Assembly: GCF_019112525.1 (NCBI RefSeq)
Contig: NZ_CP077800.1
Location: 62,001-126,000, forward strand
Reading direction: 5' to 3'
Length of the DNA: 64,000 nt
Source of the DNA: Modestobacter sp. L9-4
GTDB lineage: Bacteria > Actinomycetota > Actinomycetes > Mycobacteriales > Geodermatophilaceae
The notes under the pieces were generated by a model. That model saw nothing but the letters and a program-made list of their open reading frames with translations, searched no databases and was not told where the DNA came from. A program made the translations under genes and the position numbers. Positions 40,445 through 53,000 of the stretch are shown here, piece after piece (the first letter of the stretch is position 1; each line of letters begins with the position of its first letter).

Positions 40445-40458
40445 CCGTTATCCCCAAC
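40445..40458 (+). repeat. Dispersed repeat, copy A (CCGTTATCCCCAAC)
   Basis: One of four intergenic copies (others at 45396, 49293 and 49712), all on the plus strand. Upstream words are also shared in part (GTCGTCCA before the core). GGGGAGC lies about 40 bases downstream, as in copies B and C. Confidence 0.7.
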
Positions 40459-40607
40459 ACGGGCGCCGCGACGCCGACCCGCCGTCCCCGACCAGGGGAG
40501 CAGCGCAGCCGCCCCGACGACGGGACGAACTGCAGCAGCGGCGGCCGGAGGAGCGGGTGGGCGCGCCGTCCGGGAGGACTGCGCACGGGACCGACATCCG
40601 GGCGCCG

Positions 40608-40613
40608 TACGGT
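40608..40613 (+). promoter_or_regulatory. -10 box TACGGT of phosphomutase gene
   Basis: TACGGT ends 7 bases before the GTG at 40621, predicting a leaderless transcript for the phosphomutase-GH65 operon. Confidence 0.5.
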
Positions 40614-40620
40614 TGCGCGC

Positions 40621-41352
40621 GTGCTGGGACTCCCCGATGACATCCGGGCCTGCTTGTTCGACCTCGACGGGGTCCTGACCCAGACCGCGAAGGTGCACCA
40701 GGCTGCCTGGAAGCGCACCTTCGACGAGTTCCTCCAGGGTCGGGACCCGTCGGCGGCCGAGTTCAGCGGCGACGACTACAACCGCTACGTCGACGGGAAG
40801 CCCCGCAAGGACGGCGTCCGCGACTTCCTGGCCAGCCGGGACATCACCCTGCCCGAGGGCAGCGACGACGACCCCGCCGACGCCGCGACCGTCACCGGGG
40901 TGGCGACCCGCAAGAACCAGCTGGTGCTGGCCGAGCTCGACGAGCACGGCGTGCAGGTCTACGAGGGCTCGATGCGCTACCTGCGTGCCGCCAAGGCCGC
41001 GGGCCTGGCCACCGCGGTGGTGACCGCGTCGGCCAACGGCGGCAACGTCATCGCCACCGCCGGGTTCGCCGACCTGATCGACGCCCGGGTCGACGGGCTG
41101 GTCGCCGCCGCGGAGGGCCTGCGCGGCAAGCCCTCCCCGGACCCGTTCCTGGCCGGGGCGCGGGCGCTGGGCATGACGCCCGCGCAGTGCGTGGTGTTCG
41201 AGGACGCCCTGTCCGGGGTCGAGGCCGGCCGGGCCGGGGACTTCGGCTTCGTCGTCGGCGTGGACCGGGTCGGGCAGGCCGAGGCGCTGCGCGAGCACGG
41301 CGCCGACGTCGTCGTCCAGGACCTGGACGAGCTGCTGGAGGCCCAGCAGTGA
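40621..41352 (+). CDS. Beta-phosphoglucomutase family HAD hydrolase
   Basis: This 243-residue HAD-superfamily enzyme opens with CLFDLDGVLTQTAKVHQAAWKRTFDEFL, the D-x-D nucleophile motif and cap start of beta-phosphoglucomutases. ATAVVTASANG (motif II), GKPSPDPFLAGA (motif III lysine) and VFEDALSGVEAGRAGDFGFVVGVDR (motif IV) follow. It should turn beta-glucose 1-phosphate into glucose 6-phosphate. Its stop overlaps the GTG of the GH65 phosphorylase gene, which would supply beta-glucose 1-phosphate; the pair corresponds to Rv3400-Rv3401. The start lies 7 bases after TACGGT. Confidence 0.9.
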   Translation: MLGLPDDIRACLFDLDGVLTQTAKVHQAAWKRTFDEFLQGRDPSAAEFSGDDYNRYVDGKPRKDGVRDFLASRDITLPEGSDDDPADAATVTGVATRKNQLVLAELDEHGVQVYEGSMRYLRAAKAAGLATAVVTASANGGNVIATAGFADLIDARVDGLVAAAEGLRGKPSPDPFLAGARALGMTPAQCVVFEDALSGVEAGRAGDFGFVVGVDRVGQAEALREHGADVVVQDLDELLEAQQ

Positions 41353-43721
41353 CCGAGGGGCGCGCGCACTTCGTCGTCGAGCCCTGGTCGGTCACCGCGA
41401 TCGGGCTGGACCTGGCCTCCCTGGGTGTCAACGAGTCGGTGTTCGCCCTCGCCAACGGGCACATCGGCATGCGCGGGACCTTCGAGGAGGGGGAGCCCGT
41501 CGTCGTCCCGGGCACCTACCTCAACGGCTTCTTCGAGGAGCGGCCGCTGCCCTACGCCGAGGCCGGCTACGGCTTCCCCGAGCAGGGCCAGACGGTCGTC
41601 AACGTCACCGACGGCAAGATCATCCGGCTGCTGGTCGGGGACTCCCCGCTGGACCTGCAGTACGGCGACCTGATCGACCACCGCCGCACCCTGGACCTGC
41701 GCGACGGCGTGCTGCGCCGCACCACCGAGTGGCGCTCGCCCAGCGGCCGGCAGGTGCGGGTCACCAGCACCCGGCTGGTCTCCCTCACCCGCCGCTCGAT
41801 CGCGGCCATCGAGTACACCGTCGAGTGCACCGACGACTCCGGTGACCTCTACATCGCCCTGCAGTCGGACCTGCTGGCCAACGAGGCCGTCTCCACCACC
41901 GAGACCGACGACCCGCGGGCGGGCTCGGCCATGGACCGGCCCCTGGTCTCCGAGCTGCACGAGGGCCGCGCCCGGCACGCCGTCCTGGTGCACCAGACCC
42001 GGCGCAGCAAGCTGCGGATGGCCGCCGGGATGGACCACGAGGTGGAGATCCCGGACTCCGCGTCCGAGGAGCTCGAGGTGTCGGCGGACCTGGCGCGCTA
42101 CCAGCTCGCCGCGCGCCTGCCGGCCGGCTCGAAGCTGCGGCTGGTCAAGTACCTGGCCTACGGCTGGTCCAGCCGGCGGTCCCCGGCCGCCATGCGGGAC
42201 CAGGTGGAGGGTGCGCTGGCGACGGCGAAGCTGGCCGGTTGGGACCGGCTGCTGCGCGAGCAGCGCGAGCTGCTGGACACCCACTGGGACGAGGCCGACG
42301 TCGAGATCGAGGGCGACGCGGAGCTGCAGCAGGCCGTGCGGGTGGGCATGTTCCACGTCCTGCAGGCCGGGCTGCGCGCCGAGCGCCAGCCCATCCCGGC
42401 CAAGGGGCTCACCGGCGACGGCTACGACGGGCACACCTTCTGGGACACCGAGACGTACGTGCTCCCGGTGCTCACCTACACCGCGCCGCAGGCGGTGCGC
42501 GACGCGCTGCTGTGGCGGCACTCCATCCTCGACCAGGCTCGCGACCGGGCCCGCGTGCTCGGCTTCGACGGCGCGGCCTTCCCGTGGCGCACCATCCGCG
42601 GCGAGGAGACCTCGGGCTACTGGCCGGCCGGGACGGCGGCGTTCCACATCAACGCCGACATCGCCGACGCCGTCGCCCGCTACACCGCCGCCACCCGCGA
42701 CGAGGTCTTCGACCGCGACTACGGCACCGAGCTGCTGGTGGAGACCGCGCGGCTGTGGAGCTCGCTGGGCCACTTCGACGGGGAGCAGAACTTCCGGATC
42801 GACGGGGTCACCGGCCCCGACGAGTACACGGCCGTGGTCGACAACAACGTCTACACGAACCTGATGGCGCAGCGGAACCTCCGCGAGGCCGTCGCCGCGG
42901 TGGGCCGCAACCCCGACACGGCCGTGCGGCTGCAGGTGGGCGAGGACGAGGTCGACCGGTGGTCGCGCGCGGCCGAGGCGATGCGGGTGCCGTTCAACAA
43001 GGTGCTCGGCGTGCACGAGCAGTCGGAGGGCTTCACCCACCACGAGGAGTGGGACTTCGCCGGCACCCGGCCCGACCAGTACCCGCTGCTGCTGAACTTC
43101 CCCTACTTCGACATCTACCGGAAGCAGGTCGTCAAGCAGGCCGACCTGGTGATGGCCCTGCACCTGCGTGGCGACGCCTTCACCCTCGAGGAGAAGATCG
43201 CCGACTTCGCCTACTACGAGGCGCGCACCGTGCGCGACTCCTCGCTGTCGGCGGCGGTGCAGGCGGTCATCGCGGCCGAGACCGGGCACCTCCAGCTCGC
43301 CCACGACTACTGGGGCGAGGCGGCGCTGACCGACCTGCAGAACCTGCACGGCAACAGCGGCCACGGCCTGCACATCGCCTCGCTGGCCGGTGGGTGGATG
43401 GTCGCCGTCGGCGGGTTCGGCGGGATGCGCGACCACGGGGGCGAGCTCACCTTCGCGCCGCGGCTGCCCCCGCGGATCACCCGGCTGCGGTTCCGGGTGG
43501 TCTTCCAGGGCCGCTGCCTGTCGGTGACCGTCACCCCCGAGCGGGCCACCTACCGGCTGGTCTACGGCGACGAGCCGCTGACCATCCACCACCACGGGGA
43601 GAAGGTGGACGTCGCCCAGGACGGCGTGGAGATGGCCGTCCCGCCGGCGCTCGAGGTCGCGCCGGTCCACCAGCCGCCCAACGCCGCCCCCCGCCGCCGG
43701 AACCGCCCCACCAGCGACTGA
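41349..43721 (+). CDS. Glycoside hydrolase family 65 phosphorylase
   Basis: This 790-residue protein is a GH65 inverting disaccharide phosphorylase (maltose, trehalose or kojibiose type). The N-terminal sandwich starts ESVFALANGHIGMRGTFEEGEP. The (alpha/alpha)6 barrel holds GYDGHTFWDTETYVLPVL, PWRTIRGEETSGYWPAGTAAFHINADIADAV and the catalytic glutamate in GVTGPDEYTAVVDNN. YRKQVVKQADLVMAL contains the K-Q phosphate-site motif expected of a phosphorylase rather than a hydrolase. The linkage specificity cannot be read. The GTG overlaps the stop of the phosphomutase, so both form an operon. Confidence 0.92.
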   Translation: MTEGRAHFVVEPWSVTAIGLDLASLGVNESVFALANGHIGMRGTFEEGEPVVVPGTYLNGFFEERPLPYAEAGYGFPEQGQTVVNVTDGKIIRLLVGDSPLDLQYGDLIDHRRTLDLRDGVLRRTTEWRSPSGRQVRVTSTRLVSLTRRSIAAIEYTVECTDDSGDLYIALQSDLLANEAVSTTETDDPRAGSAMDRPLVSELHEGRARHAVLVHQTRRSKLRMAAGMDHEVEIPDSASEELEVSADLARYQLAARLPAGSKLRLVKYLAYGWSSRRSPAAMRDQVEGALATAKLAGWDRLLREQRELLDTHWDEADVEIEGDAELQQAVRVGMFHVLQAGLRAERQPIPAKGLTGDGYDGHTFWDTETYVLPVLTYTAPQAVRDALLWRHSILDQARDRARVLGFDGAAFPWRTIRGEETSGYWPAGTAAFHINADIADAVARYTAATRDEVFDRDYGTELLVETARLWSSLGHFDGEQNFRIDGVTGPDEYTAVVDNNVYTNLMAQRNLREAVAAVGRNPDTAVRLQVGEDEVDRWSRAAEAMRVPFNKVLGVHEQSEGFTHHEEWDFAGTRPDQYPLLLNFPYFDIYRKQVVKQADLVMALHLRGDAFTLEEKIADFAYYEARTVRDSSLSAAVQAVIAAETGHLQLAHDYWGEAALTDLQNLHGNSGHGLHIASLAGGWMVAVGGFGGMRDHGGELTFAPRLPPRITRLRFRVVFQGRCLSVTVTPERATYRLVYGDEPLTIHHHGEKVDVAQDGVEMAVPPALEVAPVHQPPNAAPRRRNRPTSD

Positions 43722-43917
43722 CGCAGGGCCCCCTCGCCCCCCAAGCCACGCTCAAAGCGGCGCTGGGCCCGGCGAGGGGGCGGGGGCCGGCCGGCTCGCA
43801 CCGGTCGGTGGTGAGATCTGCGTCCTCGTGGCCTCCGGGCGCGGGTGACCACGAGAACGCAGATCCCGCGCGGACGGCGACGGGAGCAGCGATCGCCCCG
43901 CCCGGGCCGGGTCCGGA
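43722..43917. terminator. Terminator region with two hairpins
   Basis: CCCCCTCGCC near 43731 pairs with GGCGAGGGGG near 43780, typical of a terminator between convergent genes. A second, separate structure has 17-base arms at 43815-43831 and 43849-43865 with one mismatch and a 17-base loop. Confidence 0.65.
43815..43865. repeat. Long near-perfect inverted repeat
   Basis: The left arm GATCTGCGTCCTCGTGG and right arm CCACGAGAACGCAGATC match at 16 of 17 positions, with a 17-base loop. It is less GC-rich than the usual terminators here. It may be a REP-like palindromic element. Confidence 0.65.
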
Positions 43918-44634
43918 TCAGCCGGTGGACGGCGCGAGCAGCCACAGGCTGCCGAGCACCAGCGCGCCGCCGTCCACGAGCAGGAACAGCCCCACCCACA
44001 GCAAGCCCGGCAGCCGGGTGAGCCGGGCCAGCTGGTCGGCGTCGGAGTCCCGCGCCGTGCCGCGCCGCCGGGAGCGCTGCAGCTCCAGCACCGTGCGCGG
44101 GGCGGCCAGCAGCAGGAACCAGGTGACCACGTGGGCGAACGCCGTCTGGCCCTCCGCGGGCGCCCACCAGGTGGCGGCGAACACCAGGGCCGCGGTGACC
44201 AGCACCGACCACAGCCCGTACCAGTTGCGGATCTGCACCAGCAGCAGCGCCAGGAGCAGCAGCAGCGCCCACAGCAGCCCGACGGCGTACCCGGCGGCCA
44301 GCAGCGCGGCCGCGCCCAGCCCGATGAGCCCCGGGCCGGTGTAGCCCGCGGCCGCGGTGAGCACCATGCCCGGACCGCTCGCCCGCCCGGCGGAGACGGT
44401 GACCCCCGAGGTGTCCGAGTGCAGCCGGATGCCCGCCAGCCGGCGTCCGGTGACCAGCGCGGCCAGCCCGTGCGCGCCCTCGTGGGCGATGGTGACCGCG
44501 TGCCGCGCCGAGCGCCACAGCGCGGGGGAGAGCACCAGGACGGCGGCCAGCGCTGCCGAGGCGGCCAGGGCCCACCCCGGCAGCGGGGGAGAGGTGGAGC
44601 TGACCCGGGTCCAGAACTCCTCGACGGCCGCCAT
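43918..44634 (-). CDS. M50-like membrane metallopeptidase
   Basis: This 238-residue membrane protein has the zinc motif HExxH in VTIAHEGAHGLAALVTGRRLAGIRLHSDTSG (about residues 47-78), the signature of the M50B-like family. About six hydrophobic helices follow, including YTGPGLIGLGAAALLAAGYAVGLLWALLLLLALLLVQIRNWYG, where N-W-Y-G replaces the usual N-x-x-P-x-x-x-L-D-G. Intramembrane cleavage is therefore not certain. The ATG at 44634 lies 6 bases after CATGAT, a possible leaderless -10. It is divergent from the ABM-domain gene. Function unknown. Confidence 0.82.
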   Translation of the reverse strand: MAAVEEFWTRVSSTSPPLPGWALAASAALAAVLVLSPALWRSARHAVTIAHEGAHGLAALVTGRRLAGIRLHSDTSGVTVSAGRASGPGMVLTAAAGYTGPGLIGLGAAALLAAGYAVGLLWALLLLLALLLVQIRNWYGLWSVLVTAALVFAATWWAPAEGQTAFAHVVTWFLLLAAPRTVLELQRSRRRGTARDSDADQLARLTRLPGLLWVGLFLLVDGGALVLGSLWLLAPSTG

Positions 44635-44730
44635 GCCCCGATCATGACCAGCCCTGCTGTGCCCGGGCCGGGCGGCGCGCGGGGGCACCTCGTTGCACGT
44701 TCGACACAGATGACGGCGATCCTGTGTCGC

Positions 44731-45345
44731 ATGGAGAGTGCTGCACCGGCACCCGCAGTACCGGAGACCCCGGAACTGCCGGTGACCGTCTCGTTCACCC
44801 GGCGCGCCGACCCGGCGCACGCGGTGGAGATGACCGCCTGGATCCGGGCGGGGCTGACGATGGCCGAGGGCTTCCCCGGCTTCCTGGGGGGCGGCTGGGT
44901 CCGTCCCCGGCACGGCGCGGACGAGTGGCACATGCTGTGCCGCTTCTCCTCGCCGGCCATGCTCGCCGCCTGGGAGGCGAGCTCCGAGCGTCGCTGGTGG
45001 CTCGGCTCGGCCCAGGGACTGGCGGAGGTGACCCGCACCGAGCGGCGCAGCGGCATCGAGGGCTGGTTCGACGCCCCCGTCGAGGCAGCCACGGAGCTGC
45101 CCGCCGCACCGCCGCCGGTGGCCCCGCCCCGGTGGAAGCAGGCCGTCACGATCTGGCTGGTCTTCTTCCCGCTCAACCTGCTCGCCACGGTCACCCTCGG
45201 CGCGCTGCTGGCCGACGTGAACGTGGTGCTCCGGGTGGCGGTCACCACGCTCACCCTCACGCCGCTGATGACCTACCTGCTGCTGCCGTGGATGACCCGG
45301 CGGCTGGGCTGGTGGCTGCAGGGCCGCCGCTGGCGCGAGCGCTAG
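44731..45345 (+). CDS. Antibiotic-biosynthesis-monooxygenase-domain membrane protein
   Basis: This protein of about 204 residues has an ABM-like ferredoxin-fold domain (PVTVSFTRRADPAHAVEMTAWIRAGLTMAEGFPGFLGGGWVRP, about residues 14-60, with HMLCRFSSPAMLAAWEAS). Two C-terminal transmembrane helices follow (VTIWLVFFPLNLLATVTLGALLA and VLRVAVTTLTLTPLMTYLLLPWM). This ABM plus membrane-anchor form is common in actinobacteria and has no known function. The ATG at 44731 lies 7 bases after GATCCT, with TTGCAC 19 bases upstream. The ATG at 44710 is an alternative. It is divergent from the peptidase gene. Confidence 0.8.
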   Translation: MESAAPAPAVPETPELPVTVSFTRRADPAHAVEMTAWIRAGLTMAEGFPGFLGGGWVRPRHGADEWHMLCRFSSPAMLAAWEASSERRWWLGSAQGLAEVTRTERRSGIEGWFDAPVEAATELPAAPPPVAPPRWKQAVTIWLVFFPLNLLATVTLGALLADVNVVLRVAVTTLTLTPLMTYLLLPWMTRRLGWWLQGRRWRER

Positions 45346-45395
45346 CCGCCACGGGCAGGGCTGCGCCACCGCGCCGTCCTGCGTTCGTCCATCAA

Positions 45396-45409
45396 CCGTT
45401 ATCCCCAAC
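45396..45409 (+). repeat. Dispersed repeat, copy B (CCGTTATCCCCAAC)
   Basis: Second copy of the intergenic motif, between the convergent ABM-domain and response-regulator genes. CAGCAGCGGGGGAGCGGTCCG lies about 40 bases downstream, close to the matching stretch in copy C. Confidence 0.72.
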
Positions 45410-45467
45410 GATCGCGCCGCTGATCAACCCAAGAAGACCCAGCAGCGGGGGAGCGGTCCGATGCGCG

Positions 45468-46139
45468 TCAGACCAGGTCGGCGTCGTGCACGAGCAGCGC
45501 CACCTGCACCCGGTTCGTCAGGTCGAGCTTCACCATCAGCCGGGACACGTGCGCCTTGACCGTGGCCACGCTCAGGTACAGCTCGGTGCCGACCTGCGCG
45601 TTGGACAGCCCGCGGCCCACGGCCAGGGCCACGTCGCGCTCCCGCTCGCTGAGCACCGCCAGCCGGTCCCGGGCCCGCTGCTGCCGCGCCTCACCCGGCG
45701 GCACCGGCCCCACCGCGGAGACGTGCGCGATCAGCTGGCGGGTCACGGTCGGCGAGAGCATCGGCTCCCCGTCGGCGACCCGGCGCACGGCGTCGACGAT
45801 GGCCGCCGGCGGGGTGTCCTTGAGCAGGAAGCCGCTGGCACCGGCCCGCAGCGCACGCAGCACCTGGTCGTCGGCGTCGAAGGTGGTCAGCACGATCACC
45901 GCCGGGGCGTCCGGTGCCCCCATGAGCGCCTCGGTCGCCGTCAGCCCGTCGGTCCGCGGCATCCGGATGTCCATCAGGACGACGTCCGGGCGGGTCCTGG
46001 CCACCGCTGCCGGGACCTCCGCCCCGTCGGCGGCCTCACCGACCAGCTCCAGGCCCGGGGCACCGCCGAGCACCATGGCCAGCGCCGAGCGCACCAGGGC
46101 GTCGTCGTCGACGACCAGCACCCGCACCGACCCGGTCAC
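45468..46139 (-). CDS. NarL/LuxR-type response regulator
   Basis: This 223-residue regulator has a receiver domain with acidic pocket VLVVDDD (about 7-13), phospho-acceptor aspartate in DVVLMDIRMP (about 54-63) and lysine in GFLLKD. A C-terminal LuxR helix-turn-helix follows (LSERERDVALAVGRGLSNAQVGTELYLSVATVKAHVSRLMVKLDL). Its GTG overlaps the stop of the histidine kinase, so both are one operon. The divergent ABC exporter genes are probable targets, as in many actinobacterial DesK/LiaS-like systems. The signal is unknown. Confidence 0.93.
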   Translation of the reverse strand: MTGSVRVLVVDDDALVRSALAMVLGGAPGLELVGEAADGAEVPAAVARTRPDVVLMDIRMPRTDGLTATEALMGAPDAPAVIVLTTFDADDQVLRALRAGASGFLLKDTPPAAIVDAVRRVADGEPMLSPTVTRQLIAHVSAVGPVPPGEARQQRARDRLAVLSERERDVALAVGRGLSNAQVGTELYLSVATVKAHVSRLMVKLDLTNRVQVALLVHDADLV

Positions 46140-47380
46140 GCCGGCCACGGCAGCGTCGCGGTCAGCCGGAACTCCCCGTCCGGCGTCCAGCCGTGCGCCA
46201 GCCCACCCCCGGCGAGGGTGACCCGCTCGAGCAGCCCGACCAGGCCCGTCCCCGCCCCGGGCAGGGCGTCGCCGTGCGCCCCGCCGGTGGGTGCTGGGTT
46301 GCGCACGTCGACCGTCAGCCCGGTGCCCGGGCCGCCGGTCACCGAGACGGTGGCGACGGTGCCGGGGGCGTGCTTGCGCACGTTGGTCAGCGCCTCCTGG
46401 ACCACCCGGTAGGCGGTCCGGCCGATCACCGACGGGGCAGCGCCGAGGTCGGCCACCCCGTACTCCGCCCGCACCCGCAGCCCCGCCTCCCGGCTCTCCT
46501 CGACCAACGCCGGGACGTCGGCCAGGCCCGGCTGCGGGCGCGTGCCGCCGTCCTCGTCGGGGGACTCGCGCAGCACGCCGATCACCTCCCGCAGGTCCTC
46601 CAGGGCCTGCCGGGCGCTGGCCCGCACCACGCCCGCGGCCTGGGCGACCTCGGCCGGTGGGGCGTCGGGCCGGAACTCCAGCGCCCCGGCGTGCATGCTC
46701 AGCAGCGACAGCCGGTGGGCAAGCACGTCGTGCATCTCCCGCGCGATGCGGGTGCGCTCGGTGTGCCGGGCCTGCTCGACCCGCAGCAGCTGCTCGCTCT
46801 CGGCCCGCACCGCCCGCTCGTGCCACGACAGGACCAGCTGGCGCCGGGCCCGGACGAACATGCCCCACGCGACGACGGCGGCGGTCACGAGCACGGTGAA
46901 GGCCACCAGCCAGGCGAAGGAGATCTCCTCGTCGGGCCGCAGCAGCGCGAAGACGCCACCGGACACGACGTTGACGGCCGCGACGACCAGCACCGGGACC
47001 AGCCGACAGTGCACCGCGACGGTGAACAGGCCGATCGCGGCGGCGAGGACGACCATCTCCGAGAAGCAGCCGACCAGCGCCAGGAGGAGGGCCACCGGCA
47101 CCGGCCACCGCCGGCGCCACCACAGCGCCCAGATCGCCAGGCCACCGGCCAGTGCGTCGATCAGCAGCACCGCGTCCGCCGGCGGCTGCGGCTCGCTCAG
47201 CGTCACCCCCAGCAGCACCGTGCCGCAGGCGCCGGCCAGCAGGAAGCAGCACAGGTCGACCAGCCAGTCACGCGCCGACCGCCGGCCGAGGGGCCGGGCG
47301 TCCGGGGACACCGGGGCGGGCATCAGCCACGCGCGCTCGCGACCCGGGGAGGTCGGCTCCGACGGGCGGGTGAGGGTCAC
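46136..47380 (-). CDS. Sensor histidine kinase (HisKA_3)
   Basis: This 414-residue membrane kinase has about five N-terminal helices (LVDLCCFLLAGACGTVLLGVTL through FAWLVAFTVLVTAAVVAWGMFV). A DHp domain follows with the phospho-histidine in ERTRIAREMHDVLAHRLSLLSMHAGAL, then an HATPase_c domain with YRVVQEALTNVRKHAPG and GAGTGLVGLLERVTLAGG. It has no large extracytoplasmic loop, so it probably senses the membrane or a transporter. The GTG at 47380 lies 7 bases after TAACCT (47393-47388, minus strand), indicating a leaderless mRNA; an ATG at 47323 is a weaker alternative. Confidence 0.92.
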   Translation of the reverse strand: MTLTRPSEPTSPGRERAWLMPAPVSPDARPLGRRSARDWLVDLCCFLLAGACGTVLLGVTLSEPQPPADAVLLIDALAGGLAIWALWWRRRWPVPVALLLALVGCFSEMVVLAAAIGLFTVAVHCRLVPVLVVAAVNVVSGGVFALLRPDEEISFAWLVAFTVLVTAAVVAWGMFVRARRQLVLSWHERAVRAESEQLLRVEQARHTERTRIAREMHDVLAHRLSLLSMHAGALEFRPDAPPAEVAQAAGVVRASARQALEDLREVIGVLRESPDEDGGTRPQPGLADVPALVEESREAGLRVRAEYGVADLGAAPSVIGRTAYRVVQEALTNVRKHAPGTVATVSVTGGPGTGLTVDVRNPAPTGGAHGDALPGAGTGLVGLLERVTLAGGGLAHGWTPDGEFRLTATLPWPA

Positions 47381-47387
47381 CGCGCCG

Positions 47388-47393
47388 AGGTTA
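47388..47393 (-). promoter_or_regulatory. -10 box TAACCT of the kinase operon
   Basis: On the minus strand TAACCT ends 7 bases before the kinase GTG at 47380. The opposite promoter for the ABC genes lies within the same 153-base gap (CAGGCT at 47521-47526, 7 bases before the ATG). Confidence 0.5.
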
Positions 47394-47533
47394 CGGACGG
47401 CGAGGGCCCGCGGGAACCGACCGAAGGAGGGGGTCGGTGCGACCTGTGGCCCACCGGGCGGCGACCGAGGTGGCCCCGGCCGGCGACTCCCGGGCGATGT
47501 GCCCCGACCGGTCCGCCGGCCAGGCTCGTCGGC

Positions 47534-48445
47534 ATGATCACCGTCGAGCACCTCACCAAGCGCTACGGCGCCCGGACCGTCGTATCCGACGTGTCCTTCT
47601 CCTGCCCGCCGGGCACCGTGACCGGCTTCCTGGGCCCCAACGGCGCCGGCAAGTCCACCACCCTGCGGGCGCTGGTCGGGCTCACCGTCCCGACCAGCGG
47701 CACGGCCACCATCGGCGGCCGCGCCGCCCGCGACCTCCCCAACGCCGGCCGGCAGGTCGGCGTCCTGCTGGACGCCGGGGCGCAGCACGCCGGCCGCACC
47801 GGCCGGAAGACGCTCACCCTCACCGCGGCCGTCCTCGGCGTCGGCGTCGCGCGGGTCGACGAGGTGCTCGCGGACGTCGGCCTGGCCGGGCGCCCGGCCG
47901 GCACCCGCGTGGGCGCGTACTCCCTCGGCATGCGCCAGCGGCTGGGCCTGGCGGCCGCCCTGCTCGGCGACCCCGAGGTGCTGGTGCTCGACGAGCCCGC
48001 CAACGGACTCGACCCCGCCGGCATCTGGTGGATGCGCGGGCTGCTCCGCGGCTTCGCCGACCGGGGCGGCACGGTGCTGCTCAGCTCCCACCAGCTGCGC
48101 GAGGTGGAGGCGGTGGCCGACCAGCTCGTCGTCATCGCCGGCGGCCGGGTCGCGGCCCAGGGGAGCCGGACGGAGCTGCTGGGCCGCCGCGGGACCGTCG
48201 TCCGCGGACCGGACCGGGCCGTGCTGGCCGCCGCCCTGCGGACGGCGGGCATCGCCGTCGCACCCGGGGACGGTGACGACCTCGTCGCCGACGCCGACCC
48301 GCTCGCCGTCGGACAGGCGGCCGCGGCTGCCGGGGCGGTGCTCACCGAGCTGCGGCAGGCCGGCAGCGAGGGCCTGGAGGAGCTGTTCCGGGCCCTCACC
48401 GGTGCTCAGGACGCCGCGACGGGGCAGCCGGCGGTGGCGGCATGA
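47534..48445 (+). CDS. ABC transporter ATP-binding protein
   Basis: This 303-residue protein is an ABC ATPase of the multidrug/bacitracin exporter type. Walker A is GPNGAGKSTTLRALVG (about 36-51). The signature is YSLGMRQRLGLAAALLGDPEVLVLDEPANGLDPAG, giving LSGGQ-like LGMRQ, Walker B and D-loop together. The H-loop is in LLSSHQLREVE. The C-terminal part (about 215-303) is the extra domain found in these exporters. The ATG overlaps no upstream gene and lies 7 bases after CAGGCT. It is divergent from a two-component system, which probably controls it. Confidence 0.92.
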   Translation: MITVEHLTKRYGARTVVSDVSFSCPPGTVTGFLGPNGAGKSTTLRALVGLTVPTSGTATIGGRAARDLPNAGRQVGVLLDAGAQHAGRTGRKTLTLTAAVLGVGVARVDEVLADVGLAGRPAGTRVGAYSLGMRQRLGLAAALLGDPEVLVLDEPANGLDPAGIWWMRGLLRGFADRGGTVLLSSHQLREVEAVADQLVVIAGGRVAAQGSRTELLGRRGTVVRGPDRAVLAAALRTAGIAVAPGDGDDLVADADPLAVGQAAAAAGAVLTELRQAGSEGLEELFRALTGAQDAATGQPAVAA

Positions 48446-49227
48446 GCGCCGTGACCCTCGAGACCGTCCCGCGTCGGCCGACCGGGGCGGTCAGGACGCC
48501 GTCACTACCCCGGCTCACCCGCGTGGAGCTGCGCAAGTCCTGCGACACCCGGGCCGGGCGCTGGCTGCTGGCCGTGATCGTCCTGGCGGTCGCCGGCACG
48601 GTCGCGCTGGGCCTGTTCACGAGCGACGACGCGCTGAGCCTGTCCGACCACCTGCAGTTCACCCAGCTGGCCACCGGCGTGCTGCTCCCGGTGCTCGGCA
48701 TCCTGCTGGTCACCAGCGAGTGGTCCCAGCGGACGGCGATGACCACCTTCGCGCTGGTGCCCCGGCGCTCCCGGGTGCTCACCGCGAAGGTGCTGGCCGC
48801 AGCCGGCCTCGCCCTGCTCGGGGTGGCCGCGACGCTGGTGGTCTCCGCGGGGGCCGTCGTCCTCACGCCGCTGGTGACCGACGGCTCGGCGGACTGGTCG
48901 CTGGGTGCGGCCGAACTCGGCGGGGTGGTCCTGCTGCAGCTGGTCTACGTGCTGTCGGGTGTGGCGTTCGGGATGCTGCTGCTCAGCTCGCCGCTGGCGA
49001 TCGTCACCTACCTCGTGCTGCCGACGGTGTTCACGGTCCTGGTCACCACGGTGGGTGCGCTGGACTGGGTGGGCGACTGGCTGGACCTGACGACGGCGGG
49101 AGTCCCGGTGGCCGAGGGGGGAGCGGACGCCCAGGGATGGCTGCAGCTGGCCACCGCGAGCGCGCTGTGGCTCGGGCTGCCCATGGCGCTGGGCTGGCTC
49201 CGCATCGAGCGAGCTGAGATCTCCTGA
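48442..49227 (+). CDS. ABC transporter permease (ABC-2 type)
   Basis: This 261-residue membrane protein is the permease partner of the preceding ATPase; its ATG overlaps that gene's stop. It has about six transmembrane helices (WLLAVIVLAVAGTVALGLF, FTQLATGVLLPVLGILLV, VLAAAGLALLGVAATLVVSAGAVVL, LGGVVLLQLVYVLSGVAFGMLLL, LAIVTYLVLPTVFTVLVTTVGAL and LATASALWLGLPMALGW). SEWSQRTAMTTFALVPRRSRVLTAK is typical of ABC-2-type exporters. The substrate is unknown; antibiotic-peptide or drug export is common for such systems. Confidence 0.88.
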   Translation: MSAVTLETVPRRPTGAVRTPSLPRLTRVELRKSCDTRAGRWLLAVIVLAVAGTVALGLFTSDDALSLSDHLQFTQLATGVLLPVLGILLVTSEWSQRTAMTTFALVPRRSRVLTAKVLAAAGLALLGVAATLVVSAGAVVLTPLVTDGSADWSLGAAELGGVVLLQLVYVLSGVAFGMLLLSSPLAIVTYLVLPTVFTVLVTTVGALDWVGDWLDLTTAGVPVAEGGADAQGWLQLATASALWLGLPMALGWLRIERAEIS

Positions 49228-49292
49228 GGAGTCCCGGCCCGTGGGGGTGGAGCGGCTGGTGCCGACCCACCCCCACGTCGTTCACCAGGACA

Positions 49293-49306
49293 CCGTTATG
49301 CCCAAC
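49293..49306 (+). repeat. Dispersed repeat, copy C (CCGTTATGCCCAAC)
   Basis: Third copy of the intergenic motif, one base different from the others. The next 60 bases are unusually A-rich for this genome (AAAACGAGGGAAAACCAGC) and lead into GCGGGGGAGCG and a perfect hairpin. This resembles a short transcribed element. Confidence 0.72.
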
Positions 49307-49354
49307 AAAGCGCTCGCGTCAAAACGAGGGAAAACCAGCAACGATGCGGGGGAG

Positions 49355-49379
49355 CGAGGCCGGTCCGCGACCGGCCTCG
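49355..49379 (+). terminator. Perfect hairpin after repeat copy C
   Basis: CGAGGCCGGTC (49355-49365) pairs with GACCGGCCTCG (49369-49379) with a CGC loop. It may end ABC-operon transcription or an RNA starting near copy C. Confidence 0.68.
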
Positions 49380-49711
49380 GCTGTCACCGGGGGCCGGGCC
49401 TCATTCCGTCACAGTGGGGTCACCGGTCCGCCCGGGCCTCGGTCCGGCCGACTCGAGCGGGAGTCGTGGCGATGCGGCCGGGACGGTGGTCCGGCGCCCC
49501 GGGGGAGGCTGGTCGCCCTGCCACGTCTCCCTCGCGGGGGTCGGCGTTCGGCACACGGGAGGGGGCGAACTGCCCGGCCTCGGGGTGCCGCGCTGAGTGC
49601 CCATGTCGCCCTGTCGGCCGTCTCGCCGTCGAGCAGCCGACGAGTTCCAGGGGCGTCACCGCCAGCGGCCGACCTGCCGATGACACACATGGAGCCCTTC
49701 CCTGGACTGGT

Positions 49712-49725
49712 CCGTTATCCCCAAC
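49712..49725 (+). repeat. Dispersed repeat, copy D (CCGTTATCCCCAAC)
   Basis: Fourth copy, 419 bases after copy C. It is followed by AAATTGCCACTCACCAGCAA, again locally AT-rich. It lies 76 bases before the end of the convergent WYL-regulator gene. Confidence 0.72.
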
Positions 49726-52972: not shown

Positions 52973-53000
52973 ACTTGACATAATGTCGATTATCGGCGCA
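52973..53000 (-). other. Chromosome dimer resolution site dif
   Basis: Read on the minus strand, the 28 bases form an 11-6-11 XerCD site. The XerC arm is TGCGCCGATAA, the centre TCGACA and the XerD arm TTATGTCAAGT. The XerD arm matches E. coli dif (TTATGTTAAAT) at 9 of 11 positions. Both arms show the inner ATAA/TTAT symmetry required by the recombinases. The site is markedly AT-rich for this genome and lies in an intergenic gap. It marks the replication terminus. Confidence 0.87.

Follow-up and report, generated by a model that had tools for sequence, protein, structure and literature searches.

A candidate chromosomal replication fork trap around dif in Modestobacter sp. L9-4 and its relatives in the Geodermatophilaceae

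INTRODUCTION

The reason why bacteria need replication fork traps is still debated. Two unrelated traps, based on the terminator proteins Tus and RTP and distributed over four clades, were known as of 2019 according to the accessible part of PMC6549158, and the accessible part of a 2023 review names no other (PMC10331603). The same part of this review reports a terminator site in the promoter of both tus and rtp, and describes RTP as acting in dimers on two half-sites. The range of Tus-Ter covers Enterobacterales, Aeromonadales, and Pseudoalteromonas. Here, we describe a 14-bp sequence, CCGTTATSCCCAAC, that occurs four times in a 64,000-bp stretch of the chromosome of Modestobacter sp. L9-4 (contig NZ_CP077800.1, positions 62,001 to 126,000; the window), together with a linked gene encoding a protein of about 281 amino acids.

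The locus has the anatomy of a fork trap with a site in the promoter of the putative terminator gene, like tus and rtp, and with a site and a protein that are unrelated to theirs. In common with Tus-Ter, it has non-palindromic sites that surround dif in two opposed groups, one of them in the promoter of the linked gene, and a similar protein size (296 positions in the Pfam model versus about 281 amino acids). It differs in that the Tus family PF05472 matches neither the candidate protein nor any of 19 genomes of the window's genus (the E. coli control was positive), in a fold that is predicted from models to be recombinase-like, and in some innermost site pairs that are just ~165 bp apart with dif outside. 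The sequence of the 14-mer is presumably unrelated to the Ter consensus. Narrow "type I" Tus-Ter traps, in which the gene-adjacent site is innermost, are described in the accessible part of PMC8707476 and offer a further likeness. RTP-ter of Bacillus subtilis likewise combines an autoregulated terminator gene with opposed site clusters (PMC10331603, accessible part), autoregulation being a prediction in our case, whereas the system described here has a single 14-bp asymmetric unit and a ~281-amino-acid protein that no Pfam RTP model matches. Among the titles listed by full-text searches of open-licence literature on fork traps in Actinobacteria, Actinomycetota, Geodermatophilaceae, or Modestobacter, on new terminators, and on inactive recombinases as barriers, none described this system.

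RESULTS

Polar sites around dif in Modestobacter sp. L9-4

The window contains four copies of the 14-mer to the left of dif, as follows.

40445..40458, plus strand, Ter-like site A (CCGTTATCCCCAAC), in a divergent intergenic gap, 12.5 kb left of dif
45396..45409, plus strand, Ter-like site B (CCGTTATCCCCAAC), in a convergent gap, 7.6 kb left of dif
49293..49306, plus strand, Ter-like site C (CCGTTATGCCCAAC), in a convergent gap, 3.7 kb left of dif
49712..49725, plus strand, Ter-like site D (CCGTTATCCCCAAC), in a convergent gap, innermost left site, 3.3 kb left of dif
52973..53000, minus strand, dif (TGCGCCGATAATCGACATTATGTCAAGT), the point at which site orientation flips, within the interval of the innermost opposed sites

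A preliminary description of this DNA had reported these copies, their common strand, and the G/C change in copy C, all of which we confirmed; its distances to dif were correct within 0.1 kb. It had seen no further copy in the window, and we found none on either strand with up to two mismatches. The intergenic placement also held, with A in a divergent gap and B, C, and D in convergent gaps between likely genes.

A genome-wide count on both strands, which had been proposed as a check, yielded nine exact copies of CCGTTATSCCCAAC on the single 4,224,113-bp contig, five forward and four reverse.

Genome positions 102445, 107396, 111293, 111712, and 4143423, plus strand, exact copies on the left arm (whole-chromosome search)
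Genome positions 127312, 127774, 128227, and 148911, minus strand, exact copies on the right arm, beyond the window (whole-chromosome search)

All nine copies read toward dif and none lies on the wrong side, so that the orientation switches at dif, as the preliminary description had suggested should be examined. With dif at genome position 114978 and dnaA at 2228139, the two are separated by 2,113,161 bp, compared to a half genome of 2,112,056 bp; dif is thus almost exactly opposite dnaA. The innermost opposed sites are 15.6 kb apart and enclose dif. Allowing one mismatch added one reverse-strand copy (five of each orientation), outside the terminus stretches that were fetched for closer study. 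Copies do become denser toward dif, as noted earlier, but only in a loose sense: the most distant exact copy lies ~196 kb away. Chance was rejected as an explanation: four matches in the window (two mismatches allowed, both strands) compare with 0.20 expected, a number that 0 of 100 shuffles reached; nine polar copies occur genome-wide; and the reversed pattern was absent from 1.28 Mb around dif in 24 genomes.

Polarity and conservation of the sites in relatives

The exact 14-mer was present in 31 of 59 genomes, including that of strain L9-4: 30 of 35 from the same family and 1 of 24 from outside it (one copy). It is mostly confined to the terminus region, and the pattern read backward gave one match across all 59 genomes. 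We fetched 121 of the 139 family matches with their surroundings. Counts of polar and sorted sites are not independent, and some of the sites are orthologous. Where the fetched stretch included dif (24 genomes), the orientation was toward dif at 107 of 108 exact sites and at 13 of 14 sites with one mismatch. Both exceptions (G028 110580, plus strand, exact; G015 1011608, minus strand, one mismatch) are partners in a close convergent pair adjoining the linked gene. Plus-strand sites precede minus-strand sites in all 26 fetched contigs with exact sites in both orientations, our own chromosome being treated as circular. The same order was found in 38 of 38 contigs when the family was searched more widely (with up to one mismatch, among the matches listed); this set comprises contigs with both orientations, excludes one-orientation contigs and G033, which is in the fetched set, and has G032 in common with the fetched set.

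Opposed groups of oriented, non-palindromic sites therefore enclose the presumed termination region, the arrangement that characterizes a fork trap. Convergence of opposed sites is required of fork barriers because a divergent pair would leave DNA uncopied. We conclude that the copies are probably Ter-like sites of a chromosomal replication fork trap, at which a protein would bind and arrest forks in one direction.

Alignment of the copies and comparison with relatives had also been recommended. Core position 8 is C in 113 and G in 8 of the 121 fetched sites, the other positions being fixed by the search; flanking preferences are A at -1 (95 sites), A/T at -4 (99), and A/T at +1 (104). In the 15 one-mismatch copies of the fetched stretches, all changes fall in positions 9 to 14 and never in CCGTTATS. 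Among 11 hand-picked, position-matched site pairs from close relatives, the core was identical in 10 and differed by one base in 1. Identity over 40 bp of flank was 25 to 65% in six of the seven pairs away from the gene and 88% in the seventh, and 45 to 95% in the four gene-adjacent pairs. Since the core is kept while the flanks mostly diverge, the pattern looks like the signature of selection on a protein-binding site.

Neither random placement nor origin as the ends of one mobile element, named earlier as outcomes that would speak against a terminus function, was seen. Mobile-element ends were rejected as the flanks are mostly unshared and as searches of plasmids, phages, and viral contigs, at the sensitivity used, found no relative of the linked protein. 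A single family of short transcribed elements, another earlier suggestion, was also rejected because the sites have little in common besides the 14-mer core.

The preliminary description had further proposed DnaA binding, in which the sites would titrate or control initiation from near the terminus. The DnaA box is the 9-mer TTNTNCACA, and the core contains TTATCCCCA, which we take to be one base from the box TTATCCACA; two one-mismatch copies in G091 read CCGTTATCCACAAC. However, the CCG that precedes the 9-mer was kept in 15 of 15 one-mismatch sites of the fetched stretches, and core position 10, where the sites have C for the A of the box, is A in just 1 of these 15. Neither TTATCCACA nor TTGTCCACA occurs in the 1.28 Mb around dif, and both the polarity and the linked gene would be left unexplained. 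DnaA binding is therefore extremely improbable.

According to a crude gene caller, divergent gaps contain 36 of the 121 sites, tandem gaps 25, and convergent gaps 22, and 19 sites lie near the end of a stretch. In the window, copy A is flanked by divergent likely genes for a PEBP-family protein and a HAD hydrolase; Pfam had no match for two reading frames flanking window copies.

A linked gene with a site at its predicted promoter

One of the sites adjoins a gene in relatives as well as in strain L9-4.

Genome positions 128253 to 129098 (L064:2253-3098), candidate terminator gene (~281 amino acids), 2.3 kb past the window edge and 13 kb right of dif

A reading frame of ~281 codons starts 4 to 15 bp from one site in 20 genomes. 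Scanning 84,980 species with two peptide patterns, which find mainly close relatives, returned 83 relatives, and 80 were kept for orthologue analysis. Their titles are Modestobacter, Blastococcus, Geodermatophilus, Trujillonella, Goekera, or "Geodermatophilaceae bacterium" in 78 cases and "Frankiales bacterium" and "UNVERIFIED_ORG: Bacillus sp." in the other two. In all 80 fetched orthologues, the core lies 12 to 16 bp (21 bp in one) upstream of the start; it is exact in 59, has one mismatch in 17, and has two in 4, with G at position 8 scored as a mismatch. A TANNNT -10 element follows closely after the core and ends 6 to 7 nucleotides before the start in 78 of the 80. Among the 101 sites that were not classed as gene-adjacent, 4 have TANNNT no more than 5 bases from the core, a comparison that used slightly different windows and includes at least one site that is actually gene-adjacent (G021 58850). 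The promoter thus looks leaderless. As the site abuts the -10 element and bound protein would cover the promoter, the candidate protein is predicted to repress its own gene.

This layout raises the possibility that the protein is an ordinary transcriptional repressor of itself and a few terminus genes, with the sites as operators and their polarity incidental. The promoter-proximal site of each of the 80 orthologues would be accounted for, as would the 36 sites in divergent gaps, the gene's own included, and several genomes of one genus in which, among the matches listed, the only sites are two, one on each side of the gene's upstream region. It would not account for the orientation of 107 of 108 exact sites toward dif, the sorting of every contig in both sets, the 22 sites in convergent gaps, or the scarcity of -10-like elements beside the other sites. 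We regard this explanation as improbable.

Farther along, between genome positions 133.8 and 151.1 kb (L064 and L065), reading frames near the terminator-like gene were inspected by eye; their starts resemble those of a helicase, TatA, and a Pup-ligase/Dop-type protein.

Co-occurrence of gene and site

A protein search detected the gene in 67 of 86 family genomes representing eight genera (the copy in G020 is a fragment at a contig end) and in 0 of 60 genomes outside the family. Four further genera account for 18 of the 19 gene-less genomes, and the remaining one is G016, which is of the window's genus and 72% complete; 12 of the 19 are at least 90% complete. None of the 18 genomes of these four genera contains the exact 14-mer. 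A protein profile search of the 19 gene-less genomes (E ≤ 1) gave no match; this search itself contained no positive genome, its positive counterparts being the family and class-wide searches. Class-wide, the profile gave seven matches in 394 genomes, of which those in G000 (strain L9-4) and G033 are real, and none outside the family was convincing. The best of the other five fell in a frame that by eye resembles an ABC permease, one short match (L179) had no likely gene in view, and three further short matches had E values of 0.0012 to 0.0098.

One-mismatch matches to the 14-mer were found at 17 places in 11 of the 19 gene-less genomes, one of them in the incomplete G016; they lie mostly on separate contigs and show other core variants. 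Four genomes of one gene-less genus (G025, G066, G090, and G093) each have one reverse-strand copy of CCGTCATCCCCAAC and no exact site. These copies may be orthologous sequence present by chance or a relic.

Two site architectures and a separate polar word

In the 26 fetched contigs, the innermost opposed exact sites are 15.6 to 47 kb apart in 23, 155 kb apart in G024, where dif was not found, and 136 and 162 bp apart in two. In the wider set, 19 of the 38 contigs have a narrow pair of 143 to 166 bp beside the gene (up to one mismatch, among the matches listed), 15 belonging to genus g11 and 4 to genus g12; the remaining contigs have spacings of 14 to 44 kb. G015 and G024 also have a narrow pair when one-mismatch partners are counted. 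We located dif for 26 of the 38 contigs, and among the matches listed it lies inside the innermost pair in 13. G095, which has a ~164-bp convergent pair ~20 kb away, also carries an exact site 113 bp from dif (C78:58593-58606).

The sequence GCGGGGGAGCG, previously noted downstream of copies B and C, is indeed present at 45445-45455 and 49346-49356. It contains GGGGGAG, a separate polar word found genome-wide.

45447..45453, plus strand, GGGGGAG word inside GCGGGGGAGCG after copy B, part of a separate polar system
49348..49354, plus strand, GGGGGAG word inside GCGGGGGAGCG after copy C, part of a separate polar system

Around dif, GGGGGAG is the most polar 7-mer in the family (760 toward and 7 away, 24 genomes), and over the chromosome of strain L9-4 it is polar at 145:3 (20 tiles). 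Given this near-perfect polarity both around dif and genome-wide, it is very probably the word that orients FtsK in Geodermatophilaceae, of the kind known as FtsK-orienting polar sequences (KOPS) or architecture-imparting sequences (AIMS). The octamers (T/C)GGGGGAG are AIMS in Corynebacterium pseudotuberculosis, according to the accessible part of PMC3022926. In eight genomes of the Blastococcus-type genus g11, the counts of GGGGGAG are 35:0 outside the narrow pair, 108:2 from the pair to dif, and 1:80 beyond dif. The 14-mers of the same genomes converge at the ~165-bp pair, 19.5 to 23.4 kb from dif. As GGGGGAG flips at dif and the 14-mers converge elsewhere, the two are separate systems, and the 14-mer is not simply a pointer to dif.

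These data also bear on whether the 14-mers are marks for chromosome organization or segregation toward dif (similar to KOPS, AIMS, or matS), recognized by a translocase or Ter-macrodomain protein. Such marks would point to dif, as the 14-mer does in most genomes, and the 14-mer is mostly restricted to the terminus region; in addition, GGGGGAG follows 31 of the 121 sites within 100 bp, compared with 6 upstream. KOPS and AIMS, however, are short words, abundant genome-wide, that flip at dif, whereas the 14-mer is rare (about 1 to 13 copies per gene-bearing genome with one mismatch allowed, among the matches listed) and can converge away from dif. Its lack of palindromic symmetry and the dedicated, self-linked gene also speak against such marks, which we consider unlikely to explain the sites. 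A general pointer to dif, the form in which the preliminary description had proposed a polar terminus-organizing motif, is disfavored by the convergence ~20 kb from dif in genomes whose GGGGGAG words flip at dif itself.

The GGGGGAG words on the dif-facing side of the sites lie mostly 28 to 61 bp away. Hairpin-like words of the CCCTNCGGG type were likewise found within 136 bp of 27 of the 121 sites on the dif-facing side, compared with 2 on the other side. It should be noted that orthology inflates the counts of both words.

Predicted fold of the candidate terminator

The candidate protein matched no Pfam family at E ≤ 10, including Tus PF05472 and RTP, and no NCBIfam, PHROG, or PADLOC family. 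Two AlphaFold models of low-to-moderate confidence were compared with known structures by Foldseek. With both models, the top 21 PDB structures were all tyrosine recombinases (best E values, 0.011 and 4.3e-4); against viral models, the high-ranking entries for model 2 included unnamed ones and DNA_BRE_C/Integrase (E of 0.019 and weaker). The predicted two-domain layout resembles that of Cre and Xer, in contrast to the sequence, which gave no significant sequence or Pfam match and in which a conserved catalytic set was not found. Among the Pfam matches of the 75 sequences in the protein alignment (A4; not all are orthologues), no recombinase family (PF00589, integrase) was found. PDB sequence searches with alignments gave chance-level matches, and the single best of 975 candidate-recombinase pairs had a BLASTP E value of 5e-4. 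Based on the models, the protein probably has a Cre/Xer-like tyrosine recombinase fold; it has probably lost catalysis.

If catalysis had been retained, the sites could be recombination sites of an active tyrosine recombinase from a mobile-element or inversion system. Both models have a recombinase-like fold, and the spacing of H214-x-x-R217 and Y249 is what we take to be recombinase-like. However, R217 is R in 60 of 75 sequences and Y249 is replaced by F in 15, whereas Y241 and Y246 are invariant; with the register uncertain, the 75 sequences have no conserved Arg in the expected box-I stretch (124 to 131), no conserved Lys in 150 to 160, and no conserved Tyr after 249. The sites are single half-site-like units rather than paired arms, the terminus would be inverted if opposed sites recombined, and relatives in plasmids, phages, or viral contigs were not found at the search sensitivity used. 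An active recombinase is thus very improbable.

DISCUSSION

Replication arrest, one of several options in the preliminary description, is by far the best-supported reading of the 14-mer, given the flip at dif, the convergence of opposed sites, and the copy in the promoter of a co-distributed gene. We propose that the ~281-amino-acid protein recognizes the non-palindromic 14-mer in one set orientation and acts as a repressor of its own gene by occupying the site that abuts the -10 element of the apparently leaderless promoter. Bound protein would let a fork coming from the origin pass, since such a fork meets the CCGTTAT end first, and would stop a fork that has run past the trap and meets the CCCCAAC end first. 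With such a one-way block at opposed sites, the 15.6-kb interval that surrounds dif in strain L9-4 would admit forks and prevent their exit. If the protein is a recombinase-like fold that has lost catalysis, it might act as a single clamp on a sequence the size of a half-site and so form a roadblock.

Several observations weigh against this proposal or parts of it. In 13 of the 26 contigs in which dif was located, all of the narrow type, dif lies 10 to 23 kb outside the innermost pair (among the matches listed), a difference from the enteric traps as presented in the accessible part of PMC10331603. Four genera of the family have neither the gene nor the 14-mer, so the system is dispensable. 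The crude caller placed 19 of the 121 sites within supported reading frames; for 12 of the 19, the called start is no more than 60 bp away. GC skew at third codon positions, by position around dif in 24 genomes, showed inconsistent strand effects and consequently carries no information on where forks meet. For the fold, the models have a predicted local distance difference test score of 68 and predicted template modeling (TM) scores of 0.45 and 0.41, Foldseek TM scores were ~0.21 to 0.26 with root mean square deviations of mostly 14 to 19 Å over both domains, and VIA Z values were below 8, an unrelated chain tying with Cre at 6.9 for model 1. An hhalign comparison with recombinases returned a probability of 0.7%, and pairwise comparison with 13 recombinases of the genus gave a best score of 96 versus a shuffled maximum of 102, which is not significant.

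Taking these points together, we lean toward a chromosomal fork trap of Actinomycetota that evolved independently of Tus and RTP and would be the third of its kind. Its terminator would be a tyrosine recombinase that was domesticated, lost its catalytic activity, and now clamps one half-site as a roadblock in one direction; in one Blastococcus-type genus, the trap would have shrunk to two sites ~165 bp apart, away from dif.

If true, a third trap of independent origin, in a phylum far from those of the other two, would argue strongly that fork trapping is selected for, and it would allow shared properties of traps to be separated from accidental ones. Should the recombinase fold hold, an enzyme of the type that resolves chromosome dimers can become a replication roadblock. 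At the ~165-bp trap away from dif, fork fusion would be confined to one promoter region. With genera that have wide traps, innermost pairs of ~165 bp, or none, the Geodermatophilaceae offer a natural experiment inside one family.

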